64,000 nucleotides of DNA from Modestobacter sp. Leaf380. GTDB taxonomy: Bacteria > Actinomycetota > Actinomycetes > Mycobacteriales > Geodermatophilaceae. This document shows, in pieces, positions 57,239 through 64,000 of the stretch. The position numbers and the translations under genes are program-made. The stretch lies in contig NZ_LMQC01000021.1 of NCBI RefSeq assembly GCF_001424485.1, forward strand, positions 125,249-189,248. Reading direction: 5' to 3'. The stretch's first letter is position 1. Every line of letters begins with the position of its first letter. The notes below the pieces were generated by a model that did no database searches, was not told the origin of the DNA, and saw only the letters and a list, made by a program, of their open reading frames with translations.

Positions 57239-57616
57239 GTGACCGCCTTCTTCCTCCCCCGCGCCGAGGACGCCGACCAGGCCGAGCGGCTCTACGAGGC
57301 CCTCGCCGAGTTCGCCGGCTGCGAGCCCGCGCCGCCCGGCGCCCGGGTGCAGTCCGTCGTCTTCACCGTCGACGGCGCCCGGTGGGTGGCCGCGGTCGGC
57401 GAGGAACTGGCCGGGAGGCACACCACCTCCCGGTTGCGCCGCGGCGAGCTGATCGAGCTCACCCGGGAGCTGACGACGTCCACCCGGGTGCTCGCGGTCT
57501 ACCCCGGCGCGCCGTTCACCGTGGTCACCGACGCCGCCCCGATCACCGGCGCGACGTCGGAGTGGGCCAACCCGTTCACGGTCACGCCGGAGGAGGTCGT
57601 GCTGTTCACCGGGTGA
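57239..57616 (+). CDS. Hypothetical protein
   Basis: This 125-residue soluble protein is of unrecognised family. The N-terminus is helical (AEDADQAERLYEALAEFAGC), then strand-rich (RVQSVVFTVDGARWVAAVGEEL, TRVLAVYPGAPFTVVTD), with a final ITGATSEWANPFTVTPEEVVLF. It resembles a ferredoxin-like fold. The GTG start lies 31 bases after the previous stop, suggesting cotranscription. Confidence 0.65.
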   Translation: MTAFFLPRAEDADQAERLYEALAEFAGCEPAPPGARVQSVVFTVDGARWVAAVGEELAGRHTTSRLRRGELIELTRELTTSTRVLAVYPGAPFTVVTDAAPITGATSEWANPFTVTPEEVVLFTG

Positions 57617-57708
57617 GCTGAGTAGTCACCCGCTGCACCGGCCGCGCGGTCCCGGGCACCGTCGTCCCCGACGGGCGCACCCGGCGCCCCCGGTGGACGG
57701 AGACCCCC

Positions 57709-58008
57709 ATGAGCGCGAACACCAACCCGATGAAGAACAAGAACACCGCCGCGTTCTTCGCCCAGGCCGCCCTGGCCTTCGGCGTCAGCGCCGTGGGCCT
57801 GCTGGTCGGCATCCTGTACCTGCCGCTGGACGCCTGGCAGCGCTCGTTCCTGGCGATGACCGGGCTGTTCGTCATCACCTCCTCGTTCACGCTGGCCAAG
57901 GTCATCCGGGACGCCCAGGAGGGTTCCAGCGTGCTGAGCCGGCTGGACGAGGCCCGGCTGGAGCGGCTGCTGGCCGAGCACGACCCGTACCGAGCCAACC
58001 AGCTCTGA
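57709..58008 (+). CDS. YiaA/YiaB family inner membrane protein
   Basis: This is a 99-residue protein with two membrane helices (AFFAQAALAFGVSAVGLLVGILYL and FLAMTGLFVITSSFTLAKVI) joined by a short loop (DAWQRS), and a cytoplasmic helical tail. The pattern NxAAFFAQAALAFG and SSFTLAKVIRD is typical of YiaA/YiaB domains. The function is unknown. It is convergent with the YggT gene. Confidence 0.85.
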   Translation: MSANTNPMKNKNTAAFFAQAALAFGVSAVGLLVGILYLPLDAWQRSFLAMTGLFVITSSFTLAKVIRDAQEGSSVLSRLDEARLERLLAEHDPYRANQL

Positions 58009-58014
58009 GGCCGC

Positions 58015-58284
58015 TCAGACCGAGAGCAGCACGGCACGGAGCACGACGACGGCCAGGAAGACGACGGTGAACGCCAGGTCGAGCCCCACCCCGCCGATGC
58101 GCAGCGGCGGGAGCGCCCGGCGGACCGGGGCGATCACCGGCTCGGTGAGGCCGTGGGTGAACCGGCGGACGCCACCGATCCGGGCGGCCCCGGCCGGGGC
58201 GAGCACCCCCACCCAGTCGACGACGACGCGGGCGACGAGCACCAGCTGGAACAACAGCAGGACGGTGGCGAGCAGGGTGGTCAC
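58015..58284 (-). CDS. YggT family membrane protein
   Basis: This is an 89-residue protein with two hydrophobic helices (LLATVLLLFQLVLVARVVVDWVG and LAFTVVFLAVVVLRAVLL) flanking the conserved FTHGLTEPVIAPVRRALPPL loop. YggT proteins are implicated in cell division or osmotic protection in other bacteria. It is downstream of the OleD-like gene on the same strand, with a gap of 61 bp, and may be read from the same message. Confidence 0.88.
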   Translation of the reverse strand: MTTLLATVLLLFQLVLVARVVVDWVGVLAPAGAARIGGVRRFTHGLTEPVIAPVRRALPPLRIGGVGLDLAFTVVFLAVVVLRAVLLSV

Positions 58285-58345: not shown

Positions 58346-59254
58346 TCAGCTGTGCGGTGGCCGTGAGCTGGCGGCGAGCCAGTCGGACACCGTGCGGGTG
58401 GGGGTCCAGCCGGTCGCCCGGGTCCGGGTGAGGTCCAGGGTGATCTCCGCCGCGAGCTGGTCGACCGCGTACCGCGTCAGCACCGGCTCCCCCGGGGCCA
58501 GCCGCAGCAGGTCGGCGGCGGCCCGGGCCAGCCGCACCGGCACGTGCCGCACCCGGACCGGGCGGCCGAGCACGGCGCCCAGCACGGCGGCGACCGTGGC
58601 GTCCCGCGGGTAGGGCTGAGGGTCGGCGACGTTGTAGGCACCGGGCGCCCACCCGGGGGCGGCGAGGCAGGCGTCGGCGAGGGTCTCGACGGCGGTCAGG
58701 CTGGTGGGGACGTCGTCCCCGGGGAGCGTGAGGACCCCGCGCCGGACCGCCCGCAGCAGCCGCGGCAGCAGGTGCCGGTCCCCCGGGCCGTAGACGGCGT
58801 GCGGCCGCAGGACGACGGCTCCGGCGTCCAGCGCGAGCCGGTCACCGGCGGACTTGGTGCGGCCGTAGGCGTTGAGGTGCCCGCTCGTGGTGGGTGCGTC
58901 CTCGCCGACGTCGGCCCGCGAGCACCGCGGGTCGTAGACGCTGGCCGAGCTGACCCACACGACCGGCCGGCCCGCGGCCGCCGTCAGCACCCCGGCGGTC
59001 GCGGTGACGTTGACGGCCTCGAACTCGGCCGCGTCGCGGCCCCGGTGCGCATCGCCGACCGCGGCGGCCAGGTGCACCAGGACGTCGACGCCGGCCAGGT
59101 CGGGCGGGCCGGTGCGGGCGTCCCAGCGGCGGTGCTCCCCCACCGGGCCCGGACGGCGCCCCAGGCAGACCACCCGGTGACTGGCGGCCTCGGCGGCCCG
59201 GGCCACCACTGCCCCGCAGAACCCGCTCGCGCCGGTGACGCCGATGGTGGTCAC
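58346..59254 (-). CDS. NAD(P)-dependent reductase, OleD-like
   Basis: This is a 302-residue extended short-chain dehydrogenase. VTGASGFCGAVVARA is the cofactor loop, SSASVYDP the Ser region and YGRTKSAGD the catalytic Tyr and Lys. The segment RPHAVYGPGDRHLLPRLLRA closely follows the pattern of OleD, the 2-alkyl-3-oxoalkanoate reductase of olefin and beta-lactone pathways. It is the last of five genes with 4-base overlaps and would reduce the beta-keto acid made by the OleA-like enzyme. Other roles, such as sugar or steroid reduction, cannot be excluded. Confidence 0.82.
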   Translation of the reverse strand: MTTIGVTGASGFCGAVVARAAEAASHRVVCLGRRPGPVGEHRRWDARTGPPDLAGVDVLVHLAAAVGDAHRGRDAAEFEAVNVTATAGVLTAAAGRPVVWVSSASVYDPRCSRADVGEDAPTTSGHLNAYGRTKSAGDRLALDAGAVVLRPHAVYGPGDRHLLPRLLRAVRRGVLTLPGDDVPTSLTAVETLADACLAAPGWAPGAYNVADPQPYPRDATVAAVLGAVLGRPVRVRHVPVRLARAAADLLRLAPGEPVLTRYAVDQLAAEITLDLTRTRATGWTPTRTVSDWLAASSRPPHS

Positions 59255-60291
59255 CGGGTGGCCTCGACGACCAGGGACGCCCAGGACGGCAGGGCGGACC
59301 GACGGTCGGCGCGGGCGGACACCACCCGCGGGCGGGACGGCGCGAGCGCGGCCAGCAGGTCGCCCAGCTGGGCCCGGGCGACCCCGGCGCCGGGGCAGGC
59401 GTGCCCGCCGGCACCGAAGACCAGCTGCTGCTGGGCCGGTGCCGCGGGGTCGGCAACCGAGGGGTTGCGGACGTGGGCGGCCGCAGCGTGCCGGGTCACC
59501 AGCAGCATACGGTCACCGCGACGCACGGGGCAGCCGGCGACCTCGCCCTCGGCCGCGGCGACGCGGGGCAGCAGTGGGCTGGCCGCGGTGACCCGCAGCA
59601 GCTCGGCGACCAGGACGGTGCGCCGGACGGGATCGGCGGCGGCGTCCCAGAGGCCTGCGTCGGCGGTCCAGGCCACCGCCCGCGGGAAGGCGGCGACGGC
59701 CGTGCTCACGGTGGCGACGGCGGTGGTCGCCGCCGCCGCGGTGCCCACCAGGTCGGTCAGCGTGGTCGGCACCGGCCGGGCGCGGCGGCCGGGCAGGTGG
59801 GCCGCCGCGGTGGCGTCGGCGGTCGCCCGGGCGGCCGCGGCCAGGACCAGCGGGTCGACGTCGAGGTCCAGGACGGCGGCCGCGGTGCTGCCACCCACCT
59901 CGGCGGCCAGCGCGACGAGGTCCACCCGCCCGCCGCCGGCCAGGGTCGCGGCGGTCCGGTCGATCGGCGCCTGCCAGACCGCGCGCAGCTCCCGGGACGC
60001 GAGCCGGACACCGAGGTCCCGGCGGGCGGTGCGGTGCTGCTCGCCGGTCTGGTCGAACAGGCCACCGCCGCCGGCCGCGGCCACCGCCGCGCCGGTCGTG
60101 CCCGCGCCCAGCCGGTCCAGCGGCAACCCGGTCAGCACCTGCCGGCAGGCCTGCTCGTCGTGCACCAGGACGACGGGGCCCAGTCGCAGCACCGGCCGCC
60201 TCCGGGTGGCGGCGAGCAGGGCCAGCAGCACCGGGTGCCCGGCCAGGTAGACCCGCCGGTCCCGGCGCCGGGCCCGGGCGTGCCCGGTCAC
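59251..60291 (-). CDS. Short, atypical cytochrome P450
   Basis: This heme-thiolate protein of only 346 residues (most bacterial P450s have about 400) has the heme loop FGAGGHACPGAGVAR with Cys299, the ExxR motif in AELLRVT (E230, R233) and the C-helix H-x-x-x-R (EQHRTARR). In the I-helix the usual A-G-x-(D/E)-T is replaced by GTAAAATT (183-190), with no acidic residue before the threonines, so the normal proton relay is missing. It could act as a peroxygenase, use another oxidant or be specialised. No redox partner is encoded nearby. It overlaps both neighbours by 4 bases. Confidence 0.88.
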   Translation of the reverse strand: MTGHARARRRDRRVYLAGHPVLLALLAATRRRPVLRLGPVVLVHDEQACRQVLTGLPLDRLGAGTTGAAVAAAGGGGLFDQTGEQHRTARRDLGVRLASRELRAVWQAPIDRTAATLAGGGRVDLVALAAEVGGSTAAAVLDLDVDPLVLAAAARATADATAAAHLPGRRARPVPTTLTDLVGTAAAATTAVATVSTAVAAFPRAVAWTADAGLWDAAADPVRRTVLVAELLRVTAASPLLPRVAAAEGEVAGCPVRRGDRMLLVTRHAAAAHVRNPSVADPAAPAQQQLVFGAGGHACPGAGVARAQLGDLLAALAPSRPRVVSARADRRSALPSWASLVVEATR

Positions 60292-61739
60292 CGGCGCGCC
60301 AACCGCTCGGCGGCCCAGCGGGCGGTCGCCGCGCGGTCGGGTTTGCGGGAGCGGCCGGCCACCGGGACCGGACCGACGAGCACGGCGTCGGGGCGGGCGG
60401 TGCCCATCCGAGACAGCGGGGTGGCCAGCGCGCGACGCACCTGCACCTCGGTGCTGCCCGGCGTCGGCTGCACGACGGCGACCACCCGCTCGTCGCCGTC
60501 CTCCCCGGGCACCCCGACCAGGACCGCGAGGTCCACACCGGGCACGTGCAGGGCGGGCTCGTACAGGCCGGGGTACACGTTCTCGGCCCCCCGCAGCAGC
60601 ATGTCCTTGGCCCGGCCGGCCAGCACCACGGTGCGGCCCTCGAGTCGGGCGCGGTCGCCGGTGGCGACCTCCTCGAGCGGCTCGCCGCCCAGGTAGCGGT
60701 CGGCGGTGGTGGCGCCGGCGACCAGCAGCTGCCCGGTCCCGTCGACCCGGGCGCGGACGCCGGGCAGCAGCTCGCCGACCAGGTCGCCGTCCCCGGTGTG
60801 GGCGTGCTTCGCCGTCCACTCGACGGCGGCGACGGGGAACGCCTCGGTGAGCGCGTAGACCCCCCACGCCTGGTCCGCCCCGGCGTCCCGGACCCGACCG
60901 AGCAGACCCTCGGACACCGGGGCGGAGCCGGCGAACACCCGGCCGGTGAAGCCCGCACCCGCAGCGAGCGCGCCGCGCAGCTGGGGCGGGGTCAGGTAGG
61001 TGGCCGCCGGTGCCAGCCGGGCGAGCTGGCGGGCCAGCGCGGGCGGTCGCCGGGCCGGGGCCAGCACCGGGGCACCGGCGTGCAGGGCGGGCACGAGGAC
61101 GAAGAAGGTGCCGCCCAGCACCGGCTCCCCGGGGCGGGGGCCGACCAGGTCGGCGACCGCGGCCATCCCGGCGGACATGCTCGCGACGGTGTGCACGACG
61201 GCCCGGGGTGCCGCCGTCGTCCCCGAGGTGAAGACGACGACCGCGTCGGCGTCGTCGCCCCGGCGGTCCGGTGCGGGCCCGCTCCGGGGCTCAAGCGCCG
61301 GCGCGGTGCCGGGCAGCCGCCGCCCCACCGTGGCCACCGGGGCGAGCAGCTCCAGCCGGGGCAGCGACAGCCCGAGCCGACGGGCCACCGGCGCCGCCCA
61401 CCCGGCTGCGGCCTGCACCACCGGGTCGGCGACGACCAGTGCGGGACGGGCCAGGGCCAGTCGCGCGGTGACGACGTCCGGGCCTGCGCCGGGGTCGACG
61501 ACCGCCACCCGGACCCGCAGCCGCAGGGCCGCGAGCACCAGGGCCAGCGCCCGGCCGCCGGGCCGGACGGCGAGGGCCAGGGTGTCGCCCTCGCCCAGCC
61601 CGCGGTGGTGCAGTGCGGCCGCGTACCCGTCGGCGAGGTCGGCCAGCTCGCCCCGGGTGGTCGGTCGCCGGCCCAGCAGTGCCGGGGCGCCGGGCCGGTC
61701 GCGCAGGGCGTCGAGCAGACCGTCGACGAGCAGCGTCAC
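60288..61739 (-). CDS. Adenylate-forming enzyme, OleC-like
   Basis: This 483-residue ANL-superfamily enzyme has core A3 VFTSGTTAAP (170-179), A5 GVYALTEAF (293-301) and TGDRARLEG with the downstream Arg/Lys hinge (GRAKDMLLRGAENVYP). The A10 lysine in GRSRKPDRA is K466. In this operon, next to OleA- and OleD-like genes, it occupies the place of OleC, the beta-lactone synthetase that adenylates a beta-hydroxy acid. A role as ordinary acyl-CoA or acyl-ACP ligase remains possible. It overlaps the GT2 gene and the P450 gene by 4 bases each. Confidence 0.8.
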   Translation of the reverse strand: MTLLVDGLLDALRDRPGAPALLGRRPTTRGELADLADGYAAALHHRGLGEGDTLALAVRPGGRALALVLAALRLRVRVAVVDPGAGPDVVTARLALARPALVVADPVVQAAAGWAAPVARRLGLSLPRLELLAPVATVGRRLPGTAPALEPRSGPAPDRRGDDADAVVVFTSGTTAAPRAVVHTVASMSAGMAAVADLVGPRPGEPVLGGTFFVLVPALHAGAPVLAPARRPPALARQLARLAPAATYLTPPQLRGALAAGAGFTGRVFAGSAPVSEGLLGRVRDAGADQAWGVYALTEAFPVAAVEWTAKHAHTGDGDLVGELLPGVRARVDGTGQLLVAGATTADRYLGGEPLEEVATGDRARLEGRTVVLAGRAKDMLLRGAENVYPGLYEPALHVPGVDLAVLVGVPGEDGDERVVAVVQPTPGSTEVQVRRALATPLSRMGTARPDAVLVGPVPVAGRSRKPDRAATARWAAERLARR

Positions 61740-62470
61740 CGGGGGTCCACCGGCCTGCCTGCCGAGCCGCGGTCCAGGTACCAGGCCGCCGTGCCGAGCA
61801 CGCCGTAGGCCCGCAGCCGCCGGGTCGAGTTCTCCACCACGGCGTCCCGCCGGTGCACGACGGCCGCGCTGTGCTCCCGGACGGCGTTGAGGAACGCCCG
61901 GTCGGTCGGCGAGGGCCGCCGCGGCATGCCCCCGCAGCGCAGGTACAGGTCGGCGGTGATCGCCATGTCGTTGCCGGCGTGCATCCGGTAGGGCACCCGG
62001 TAGCGCGGGTGCCGGTGCGCCGGCCGCCAGCGGCCGAAAACCGCGGCGACGGCGACGAGCCCGGAGAACACGGCCCGACCCAGCGGACCGTGCTCGTCCC
62101 GGCGGGCCACCACCCGGCCGCACACCATCTCGGCGCCCTCGTCCAGCGCGGCCATCGCGGCGGCGAACCAGCCGGGCCGGGGCAGGCAGTCGGCGTCGGT
62201 GCGGGCGATGCGGTCGGCGCCCGCGGCGATCGCGTGCCGGAAGCCGGTGTCCACCGCGCTGCCCACGCCCTTCTCCGGCTCGGTGAGCACCACCACCGGG
62301 AAGGGGGCGGTGGCCGCGAACCCGCGGGCGATGTCGGCGGTGCCGTCGGTGGAGGCGTTGTCCACGACCAGCAGGGTGAAGTCCCGGCGCGTCTGGGCGG
62401 CCAGGGCCGCGAGGGTGCCCGGCAGCCGGAGCGCCTCGTCGTGCGCGGGGACGACGACCCAGGCGGTCAC
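61736..62470 (-). CDS. Glycosyltransferase family 2
   Basis: This 244-residue inverting GT-A glycosyltransferase shows VVVPAHDEALRLPGTLAAL, then LLVVDNASTDGTADIAR (nucleotide binding), the DxD in ARTDADCLPRPGWF, and GNDMAITADLYLRCGGMP for acceptor binding. There is no membrane helix except a weak hydrophobic stretch (VFSGLVAVAAVFG). Located between the OleA- and OleC-like genes with 4-base overlaps, it probably glycosylates the operon product or a lipid precursor. The sugar is unknown. Confidence 0.85.
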   Translation of the reverse strand: MTAWVVVPAHDEALRLPGTLAALAAQTRRDFTLLVVDNASTDGTADIARGFAATAPFPVVVLTEPEKGVGSAVDTGFRHAIAAGADRIARTDADCLPRPGWFAAAMAALDEGAEMVCGRVVARRDEHGPLGRAVFSGLVAVAAVFGRWRPAHRHPRYRVPYRMHAGNDMAITADLYLRCGGMPRRPSPTDRAFLNAVREHSAAVVHRRDAVVENSTRRLRAYGVLGTAAWYLDRGSAGRPVDPR

Positions 62471-63489
62471 GACTTCTCCCACACCATCGTGGTCAGGCTG
62501 ATCCCGCCGCCCAGGCCCACCAGCAGCACCTTCTCCCCCGGCGCCAGCTGCGGGAAGACCCGGGCCAGCTGGACACCGAGGCCGGCGCTGGCCAGGTTGC
62601 CCAGCTCACCGACGATCGGCTCCAGCTTGTCCGCCGGCACCCCGCTCACCTCCAGGAAGCGCTGCAGGTAGGGCCCGGTGACCTGGTGCACCAGCACCCG
62701 GGCGACGTCGTCCCAACCCAGGCCGGTGGCTGCGAGCGTGCGCTGCAGGATCGCCGGGCCGACGGCCTCGAAGACCTGCCGCAGCTGGGTGCCGGATCCG
62801 GTGAACCAGGTGTGCTCGTCGCCGCGCGGGTGCCGGGAACCACCGCCGGGGATGCCGCCGACCTCCCAGTGCTCGCTGTGCGCCTCGGCGTCCACGTGCA
62901 GGATGCCGCCGCGCGCGACCGGCTCCAGCACGACGGCCGCACCGCCGTCACCGAAGGTGAAGCCGGCGACCGACTCACGCAGCTGGGCCGGCCCGGACAC
63001 CTGCCGGCGCATCGACCGGGTCGGGGTCTCCCCGGTGACCACCAGGGCGCGGCGGGCCCGGCCGGCGGAGATCATCGCGGCGGCCAGGTCGATGCCGTTG
63101 ACGAAGCTGGTGCAGGCGTTGGTGACGTCCAGGCAGTGCGCGCGGGTGCCCAACCCGGCCTGCACGATGTGCGCCGTCGCCGGCTCCACGACGTCCCGGG
63201 TGGCGGAGGCGAACAGCAGCAGGTCGACGTCACCGGGGCCCGCCTGGGCCAGCGCGGCGCGACCGGCCCGGACGGCGAGGGTGGAGGCGTACTCGTCGTC
63301 CCGGGCGATGCGGCGGGAGCGGATGCCCGTCGCCGTCTGCAGGGTGCCCGGGCGGAGCGCGAGACCGGAGGCGTCGGCGATCTGCTGCTGCAGCTCCGCG
63401 GTGCTGACCACGGCCTCGGGCAGGGCCTCCGCCGCGGCCACGATGCCGACGGCCGGGCGGTCGGAGGGGTCGGGTCGGGTGGCTGCCAC
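62467..63489 (-). CDS. 3-oxoacyl-ACP synthase III / OleA-like thiolase
   Basis: This 340-residue thiolase-fold condensing enzyme has its catalytic Cys126 in VTNACTSF, His268 in LVHQVTGP and Asn298 in [10 protein letters not shown], the KAS III triad. The segment [10 protein letters not shown] places Glu102 where OleA has its catalytic glutamate, which deprotonates the second acyl chain. This favours non-decarboxylative head-to-head Claisen condensation over FabH-type chain initiation. The GTG start has TAACTT six bases upstream, so it is probably a leaderless first gene. It is first of the five-gene operon and divergent from selO. Confidence 0.85.
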
Positions 63490-63601: not shown

Positions 63602-64000
63602 GTGACCACCGCACCGCCCTCCGCCGTCGTCCTCGGGAACCGGTTCGCCCGCGAGCTGCCGGAGCTGGCACTGCCCTGGCAGGCCGAGGAGGCGCCCGAC
63701 CCACGGCTGCTGGTCCTCAACGACTCCCTGGCCACCGAGCTGGGCCTGGACCCCGAACAGCTGCGGGGGGACCTGGGCCTGCTCACCGGGACCCGGGTCC
63801 CCGAGGGCGCCACACCGGTGGCGCAGGCCTACGCCGGGCACCAGTTCGGCGGGTTCAACCCGCGGCTGGGCGACGGCCGGGCGCTGCTGCTGGGTGAGCT
63901 GACCACCCCCGACGGGCGGCTCGTCGACCTGCACCTCAAGGGCTCCGGGCGCACCCCGTTCGCCCGCGGCGGCGACGGCCTGGCCGCCGTCGGGCCGATG
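63602..64000 (+). CDS. selO: Protein adenylyltransferase SelO, 5-prime part
   Basis: SelO (YdiU) is a pseudokinase-fold enzyme that AMPylates proteins in redox regulation. The first 133 residues are present: [32 protein letters not shown], then [26 protein letters not shown] and [18 protein letters not shown], all family signatures. Catalytic Asp and metal-binding residues lie beyond the right edge. The GTG start is favoured by TACCGT six bases upstream. It is divergent from the OleA-like gene across 112 bp. Confidence 0.9.

Follow-up and report, generated by a model that had tools for sequence, protein, structure and literature searches.

A probably horizontally acquired, self-contained ole/lipstatin-like operon in Modestobacter sp. 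Leaf380 with a proposed beta-lactone route

Introduction

What would be made by an operon that combines OleA-, OleC- and OleD-like enzymes with a glycosyltransferase and a cytochrome P450, and that has no OleB? The question is raised by a locus in a 64,000-nucleotide stretch of the Modestobacter sp. Leaf380 genome (contig NZ_LMQC01000021.1, positions 125,249 to 189,248; hereafter the window), in which five genes at 58346-63489 of the minus strand encode an OleA-like thiolase, a family 2 glycosyltransferase (GT2), an AMP-forming ligase, a P450 and a short-chain dehydrogenase/reductase (SDR) resembling OleD. An original prediction from the DNA letters named a possibly glycosylated and hydroxylated beta-lactone, or a long-chain beta-hydroxy lipid, as the product. 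The best explanation of the locus, which we hold to be somewhat better than an even call, is that it arrived by horizontal transfer as a self-contained ole/lipstatin-type operon with a proposed beta-lactone route; this builds on what was directly observed: the genes present, their key residues, their phylogeny and conservation, and a corresponding genomic site that holds another gene in congeners. Beta-lactones are enzyme-inhibitor warheads, and the beta-lactone lipstatin led to an anti-obesity drug (PMC7064751). Both the gene set and the hypothesis of a glycosylated, hydroxylated beta-lactone have already been published for Actinoplanes atraurantiacus, where a region described as OleA-glycosyltransferase-OleC-P450-OleD, with no OleB, was assigned such a proposed product in 2020 (PMC7064751). 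New here are the tests of the ligase and the P450, the replacement loci, a second gene order and the acquisition of the operon.

Operon structure and the OleA-like thiolase

All five open reading frames lie at the coordinates given beforehand, each with GTG as its start codon, and the four overlaps that the original prediction described were found at exactly the claimed positions, each a four-base GTGA stop/start junction (Table 1). Pfam domains detected in the proteins are ACP_syn_III, Glycos_transf_2, AMP-binding, Epimerase and 3Beta_HSD, with p450 below threshold. As predicted, there is no OleB among the operon genes; the best match to an OleB in the whole genome lies on a different contig and, at 32% identity and 79 bits, is not decisive.

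The thiolase carries all of the residues claimed for it, with Glu102 (in E102-P103), Cys126, His268 and Asn298 aligning with the OleA catalytic set and staying unchanged when the window protein is aligned with three orthologues from named genomes. Its best PDB profile matches are 3fk5 and 3row (117 bits), which we take to be the OleA of X. campestris, followed by the Pseudomonas quinolone signal (PQS) biosynthetic enzyme 3h76 (100 bits) and the FabH-type chain 4ryb (89 bits). In a 48-row tree, the operon OleA and its orthologues form one clade (100/99), and a 100/100 branch splits the ole side, which holds this clade, from the FabH clade. The OleA-marking glutamate is present in every row of the operon OleA clade (12/12, window included) and absent from all six FabH-clade rows, as well as from L042, L116, L121, L125 and L126, which fall on the FabH side or apart. 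This tree left out 15 of 63 rows, all from operon loci of genus g38, and its labels were assigned by locus number before the content of the loci was known. Accordingly labelled canonical ole, L116 and L121 are both placed on the FabH side, and L031 (identical to L124), labelled FabH-like, sits with the ole rows and contains the glutamate. Among the rows labelled 'class3' (L103-L112), L104, L107, L111 and L112 sit in ole clusters with OleC-like and OleD-like genes and an OleB-family hydrolase (the three ole genes were individually checked in L104). The phylogenetic placement proposed beforehand as a check thus puts the thiolase on the ole side rather than with FabH, and tree position and glutamate together uphold its assignment as OleA. 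The enzyme is predicted to condense acyl-CoAs by non-decarboxylative Claisen chemistry.

Conservation of the gene order

Genomes were searched with an OleA profile at E <= 1e-60. Matches were found in 3 of 396 genomes of a phylum draw, 27 of 394 of a class draw (10 of them at >=542 bits) and 8 of 298 of an order draw, the genome of the window being included in each; of the three lower-scoring genomes in the order draw, a locus was retrieved from G1423 only. In the family of the window the profile matches 1 of 112 genomes, namely the window's own. Matches are more numerous in genus g38 (47/295 genomes, 28 of them at >=538 bits, with loci retrieved from 24 of these 28), three of the 215 genomes in the genus of G928 match, and a copy of the operon OleA also occurs in S. 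gossypii (L039). No relative was found in the viral contigs searched.

The order seen in the window, OleA-GT2-ligase-P450-SDR (type I), recurs in 24 of 28 loci, window included, as well as in L174 and L198, so the synteny search suggested at the outset bore out the five-gene order. The exceptions are L085, which is partly deleted, L086 and L087, which end at contig edges, and L095, which has no SDR; in L077 and L083 some operon genes match in pieces. Plasmid pKVP2 of Streptomyces viridifaciens (L205, CP090842.1) encodes an OleA 64% identical to that of the window, followed, by annotation, by a GT2, an acyl-CoA ligase, a P450 and an NAD(P)-dependent oxidoreductase, which is the type I order. 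A second order, OleA-GT2-P450-ligase-SDR (type II), was observed in 14 of 18 related loci (L098-L102, L177-L184, L202) and is incomplete in L175, L176, L185 and L186.

Because homologues of the five genes keep the same order in 24 of the 28 type I loci, an operon is favored over a chance association. A chance neighborhood of primary-metabolism genes for an ordinary FabH and acyl-CoA synthetase would be permitted by the Pfam domains alone, but it is scarcely credible given the glutamate and starred tree position of the thiolase, the conserved order, and the lack of any match at the search threshold in the other 111 genomes searched in the family, the separate weak KAS III match in the same genome (29%, 40 bits) lying on contig C20. 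The plain FabH/acyl-CoA synthetase reading is refuted by the OleA tree, the glutamate and the synteny.

Ligase and reductase

The ligase was predicted to be OleC-like, and its trees, in which CoA ligases, FAAL-like ligases and A-domains served as comparison groups, lean in that direction: the ligase clade groups with OleC/OleBC at 90/86 over the whole length (40 rows, 20 of 60 having been removed beforehand) and at 94/97 in an N-domain tree (48 rows), neither grouping being starred. With a profile built from this clade together with its type II sister, OleC/OleBC have median scores of 129 and 139, versus 106 for CoA ligases. The P-loop is altered (TSGTTxxP[RK]AVVH), and the C-terminal motif reads RSRKPDR where OleC references have RHNxKID, with the A10 lysine aligned. 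On the NCBIfam OleC model (cut-off 900), a Nocardioides orthologue reaches 53 bits, and the cut-off is likewise missed by OleBC/OleC from two actinobacterial ole clusters (243 and 376). Judged from these comparisons, the ligase is likely akin to OleC.

The reductase contains the predicted OleD-like feature RPHAVYGPGDRHLLPRL together with Tyr130-xxx-Lys134. OleD is its best NCBIfam model, although weakly so (64.5 bits against a cut-off of 580); references from ole clusters, at 327 and 345, also remain below this cut-off.

A lipstatin-like role of the cassette is best supported by two relatives, L200 and L201. In these, a type I OleA (62 and 63% identity with that of the window) and a type I P450 without the I-helix acid (see below) occur in the order OleA-P450-OleC type-OleD type-NRPS-like (nonribosomal peptide synthetase-like), a lipstatin-like arrangement without GT2. 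Here, genes of OleC type, OleD type and NRPS-like type replace the ligase, SDR and GT2 of the cassette. With the OleC model the two ligases reach 481 and 485 bits, short of its cut-off; PRK09274 gives them 556 and 560 bits, which exceeds its cut-off of 478. They have an OleC-type P-loop and RHNAKID, neither of which is present in the cassette ligases of L198 and L199. The reductases are of OleD type (206 and 215 bits), and the NRPS-like protein (1003-1005 aa) has AMP-binding and carrier domains. The OleA of L200 and L201 nests within the type I clade beside L198, a five-gene locus (100/99), in a tree with the OleA of L198-L201 that left out L042, L031, L124, L116, L125 and L110. Since OleC- and OleD-type genes take their place in these loci, the ligase and SDR of the cassette may be regarded as OleC and OleD equivalents, and the simplest reading is that they would do the work of those enzymes.

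Several findings weigh against a beta-lactone route of this kind. The OleC model gives the window ligase only 31 bits, compared with 243 and 376 in the two actinobacterial references, and the hinge of the window ligase (GRxKDMxLRxAENxYPGLYEP) resembles CoA ligases and FAALs, not OleC. The reverse profile, made from OleC/OleBC, scores CoA ligases at up to 170 bits and the type II sister at up to 161, and the window ligase clade only at up to 116, so the profile evidence favors OleC in one direction only. The SDR tree, which left out rows of 12 operon loci, gives no resolved placement, its one outgroup, an SDR of the same genome with an end branch of 8.77, being unusable. With 90% identity between their OleA proteins, L200 and L201 are closely related, and the replacement therefore counts as one event, not two. 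Finally, purified OleA from Actinoplanes, obtained in small amount, condensed none of the acyl-CoAs tried, from C8 to C16 (PMC7064751).

A secure OleC call was not accepted for the window ligase in view of its CoA-ligase-type hinge and low model and profile scores; the predicted OleC assignment stands insofar as the trees lean to OleC and OleC-type genes replace the ligase in L200 and L201. For the reductase, the OleD assignment keeps its best-matching model and loses force from the weak score. The hinge, with its ENxYP, and the A10 lysine are what would be expected of an acyl-CoA or acyl-AMP transfer ligase, and the best PDB profile matches of the ligase are malonyl-, oxalate- and fatty-acyl-CoA synthetases. 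In that case no beta-lactone would form and the product would be a glycosylated lipid or ester of the 2-alkyl-3-hydroxy (corynomycolate-like) kind, an alternative that we consider possible though rather unlikely given the lean of the ligase trees to OleC and the OleC-type ligase in the same place in L200 and L201.

The Actinoplanes assay also fits an OleA-like enzyme that takes short, branched or carrier-protein-bound acyl donors and leads to a non-fatty specialised metabolite, as do the type II loci L098-L102, whose core genes have those for an acyl carrier protein and a FAAL-like AMP ligase as neighbors. Such donors seem quite improbable for the window, whose operon genes include no carrier protein or FAAL, and low yield and precipitation may account for the negative result in Actinoplanes (PMC7064751).

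P450 and glycosyltransferase

The original prediction allowed for possible hydroxylation of the product, for which the P450 would be responsible. Its Pfam score is 16.6, under the cut-off of 22.8, but ExxR (ELLR) and the heme-cysteine motif FGAGGHACPG are present, and a structure model of medium confidence (predicted local distance difference test (pLDDT) 72; lowest at residues 1-14 and 266-298, with the overall fold alone used) matches P450 structures in Foldseek. The heme motif is found in 25 of 26 P450 rows, the frame stopping early in L083. The acid of the I-helix acid-threonine pair, whose usual role in P450s is proton delivery, has given way to S, N, T or A in all 26 rows, window included, and is likewise lacking in the further loci L198-L201; type II P450s have TET at this position in 20 of 20 proteins from 13 loci, and 10 of these 20 proteins stem from five closely similar loci. 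The prediction thus holds as far as a P450 with ExxR and heme cysteine is concerned, and plain hydroxylation is uncertain because the I-helix acid is replaced.

The GT2 model (pLDDT 85) matches GT-A family 2 enzymes (e.g., K4CP chondroitin polymerase and WrtF fucosyltransferase), and RTDAD is conserved in the GT2 of all 29 loci that have one, as well as in 10 second copies. A GT2 is absent from 4 of 33 loci (L085, L199, L200, L201) and duplicated in 10 of 33. Glycosylation of the product is plausible from these features, as originally proposed, but would not be universal among the relatives of the operon. In Nocardioides, a BrkB-family membrane domain is encoded upstream of the second GT2, and a membrane glycolipid, as in the transfer-ligase alternative, would fit second GT2 genes of which some lie behind such a domain. 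Separately, a BrkB-family domain was observed immediately ahead of the second GT2 in L040, L041 and L174, in one shared open frame in L041.

Proposed route and comparison with known systems

We infer every reaction of the proposed route, including the beta-lactone product. The OleA-like thiolase would join two acyl thioesters in a non-decarboxylative Claisen condensation, the SDR would reduce the resulting 2-alkyl-3-oxo acid to a 3-hydroxy acid, and the ligase, as an OleC equivalent of its own clade, would activate the carboxylate so that the 3-hydroxyl could close the beta-lactone, a step that is only predicted for this enzyme. The P450 may oxidise the lipid at an unspecified position, perhaps via non-standard chemistry, and the GT2 would put a sugar on a hydroxyl as a late, non-universal step. 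The original prediction is borne out in part: it is supported for OleA and finds weaker backing for OleC and OleD, hydroxylation is uncertain, and glycosylation is plausible. A bolder conjecture, which we regard as unlikely, is that the ligase clade of both gene orders is a separate beta-lactone synthetase lineage with a CoA-ligase-type hinge, partnered by an acid-less P450 (non-hydroxylating or peroxide-type oxidation) and giving undescribed oxidised, sometimes glycosylated beta-lactone lipids that spread horizontally among actinobacteria. The compact five-gene set and its natural replacement relatives offer a direct route to testing the function of both the ligase clade and the acid-less P450.

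Actinobacterial ole hydrocarbon clusters (OleA-OleBC-OleD or OleA-OleB-OleC-OleD) share the OleA catalytic set and the pathway logic with the window operon, which differs in having no OleB or OleBC and a far more diverged ligase and reductase. Lipstatin (lst) and nocardiolactone (nlt) clusters, presumably oleACD without OleB, are closer in that OleA-, OleC- and OleD-like enzymes occur with no adjacent OleB, but the window operon has one OleA gene, an additional GT2 and P450, and a distant ligase and reductase. Lipstatin-type operons include an NRPS, a formyltransferase and two OleA genes; no NRPS, formyltransferase or second OleA is found among the five genes between the flanks of the window operon, unlike L200 and L201, which add an NRPS-like gene as in the lipstatin type. 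The nearest described system is the Actinoplanes cluster, with the same five domain types in the same textual order, no OleB and the same proposed product type (PMC7064751); it belongs to another organism and is likened here by described gene content, not by sequence. Its OleA was active in a p-nitrophenyl ester screen (PMC7064751). The available portion of the text on this cluster makes no mention of the ligase hinge, the P450 I-helix or loci with OleC and OleD replacements (PMC7064751), and no product of such an operon was found reported since in the open-licence literature.

Genomic site and acquisition

Nothing except the five operon genes lies between the YggT and SelO flanks (Table 1). 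In the five congeners examined of the eight in the genus (G001-G004, G006), the same flanks, named by Pfam, are 1.34-1.38 kb apart, and in 5/5 the site contains a single open frame resembling a zinc alcohol dehydrogenase gene (Pfam assignment made on L137 alone). Horizontal acquisition of the operon is suggested because the congener site holds another gene and the OleA profile matches a single genome of the family. The guanine-plus-cytosine content of the operon is 78.8%, that of the window 73.9%. The nearest OleA to that of the window is from L199, in family f16 of the same order (68% identity), a pair that is weakly supported (80/81). When the congeners' gene was compared with the window by tblastx, short high-GC matches resulted, which were disregarded.

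Table 1. Positions of the operon genes, their overlaps and the flanking genes in the window
Feature	Position	Strand	Remarks
OleA-like thiolase (KAS III family), 340 aa	62467..63489	-	Cys126-His268-Asn298 and Glu102
GT-A glycosyltransferase family 2, 244 aa	61736..62470	-	DAD metal motif
AMP-forming ligase, probably OleC-related, own clade	60288..61739	-	Altered P-loop, CoA-ligase-type hinge
Short cytochrome P450, 346 aa	59251..60291	-	ExxR and heme Cys, without I-helix acid
Extended SDR / OleD-like reductase	58346..59254	-	Tyr130-xxx-Lys134
GTGA overlap OleA-GT2	62467..62470	-	Stop/start
GTGA overlap GT2-ligase	61736..61739	-	Stop/start
GTGA overlap ligase-P450	60288..60291	-	Stop/start
GTGA overlap P450-SDR	59251..59254	-	Stop/start
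Left flank, YggT-family gene	58015..58284	-	Kept at same site in congeners
Right flank, 5' part of SelO-family gene continuing past window end	63602..64000	+	Kept at same site in congeners

Additional observations on related loci

Window positions 57612-58011 have no counterpart at the corresponding site of the five congeners, and similar stretches occur elsewhere in several of them. L085 resembles a remnant, with a matching OleA, matching pieces of the SDR and no match to GT2, ligase or P450. L187 and L188 hold an ole cluster ordered OleA-OleC-OleD-OleB. The type II clusters of L098-L102 adjoin genes for a flavin monooxygenase, a PurF-like protein, a FAAL-like ligase, an acyl carrier protein and a DUF6506 protein (domains checked in L099, where a PurM-like gene also lies behind the cluster), a neighborhood that perhaps represents a nucleoside-lipid pathway.

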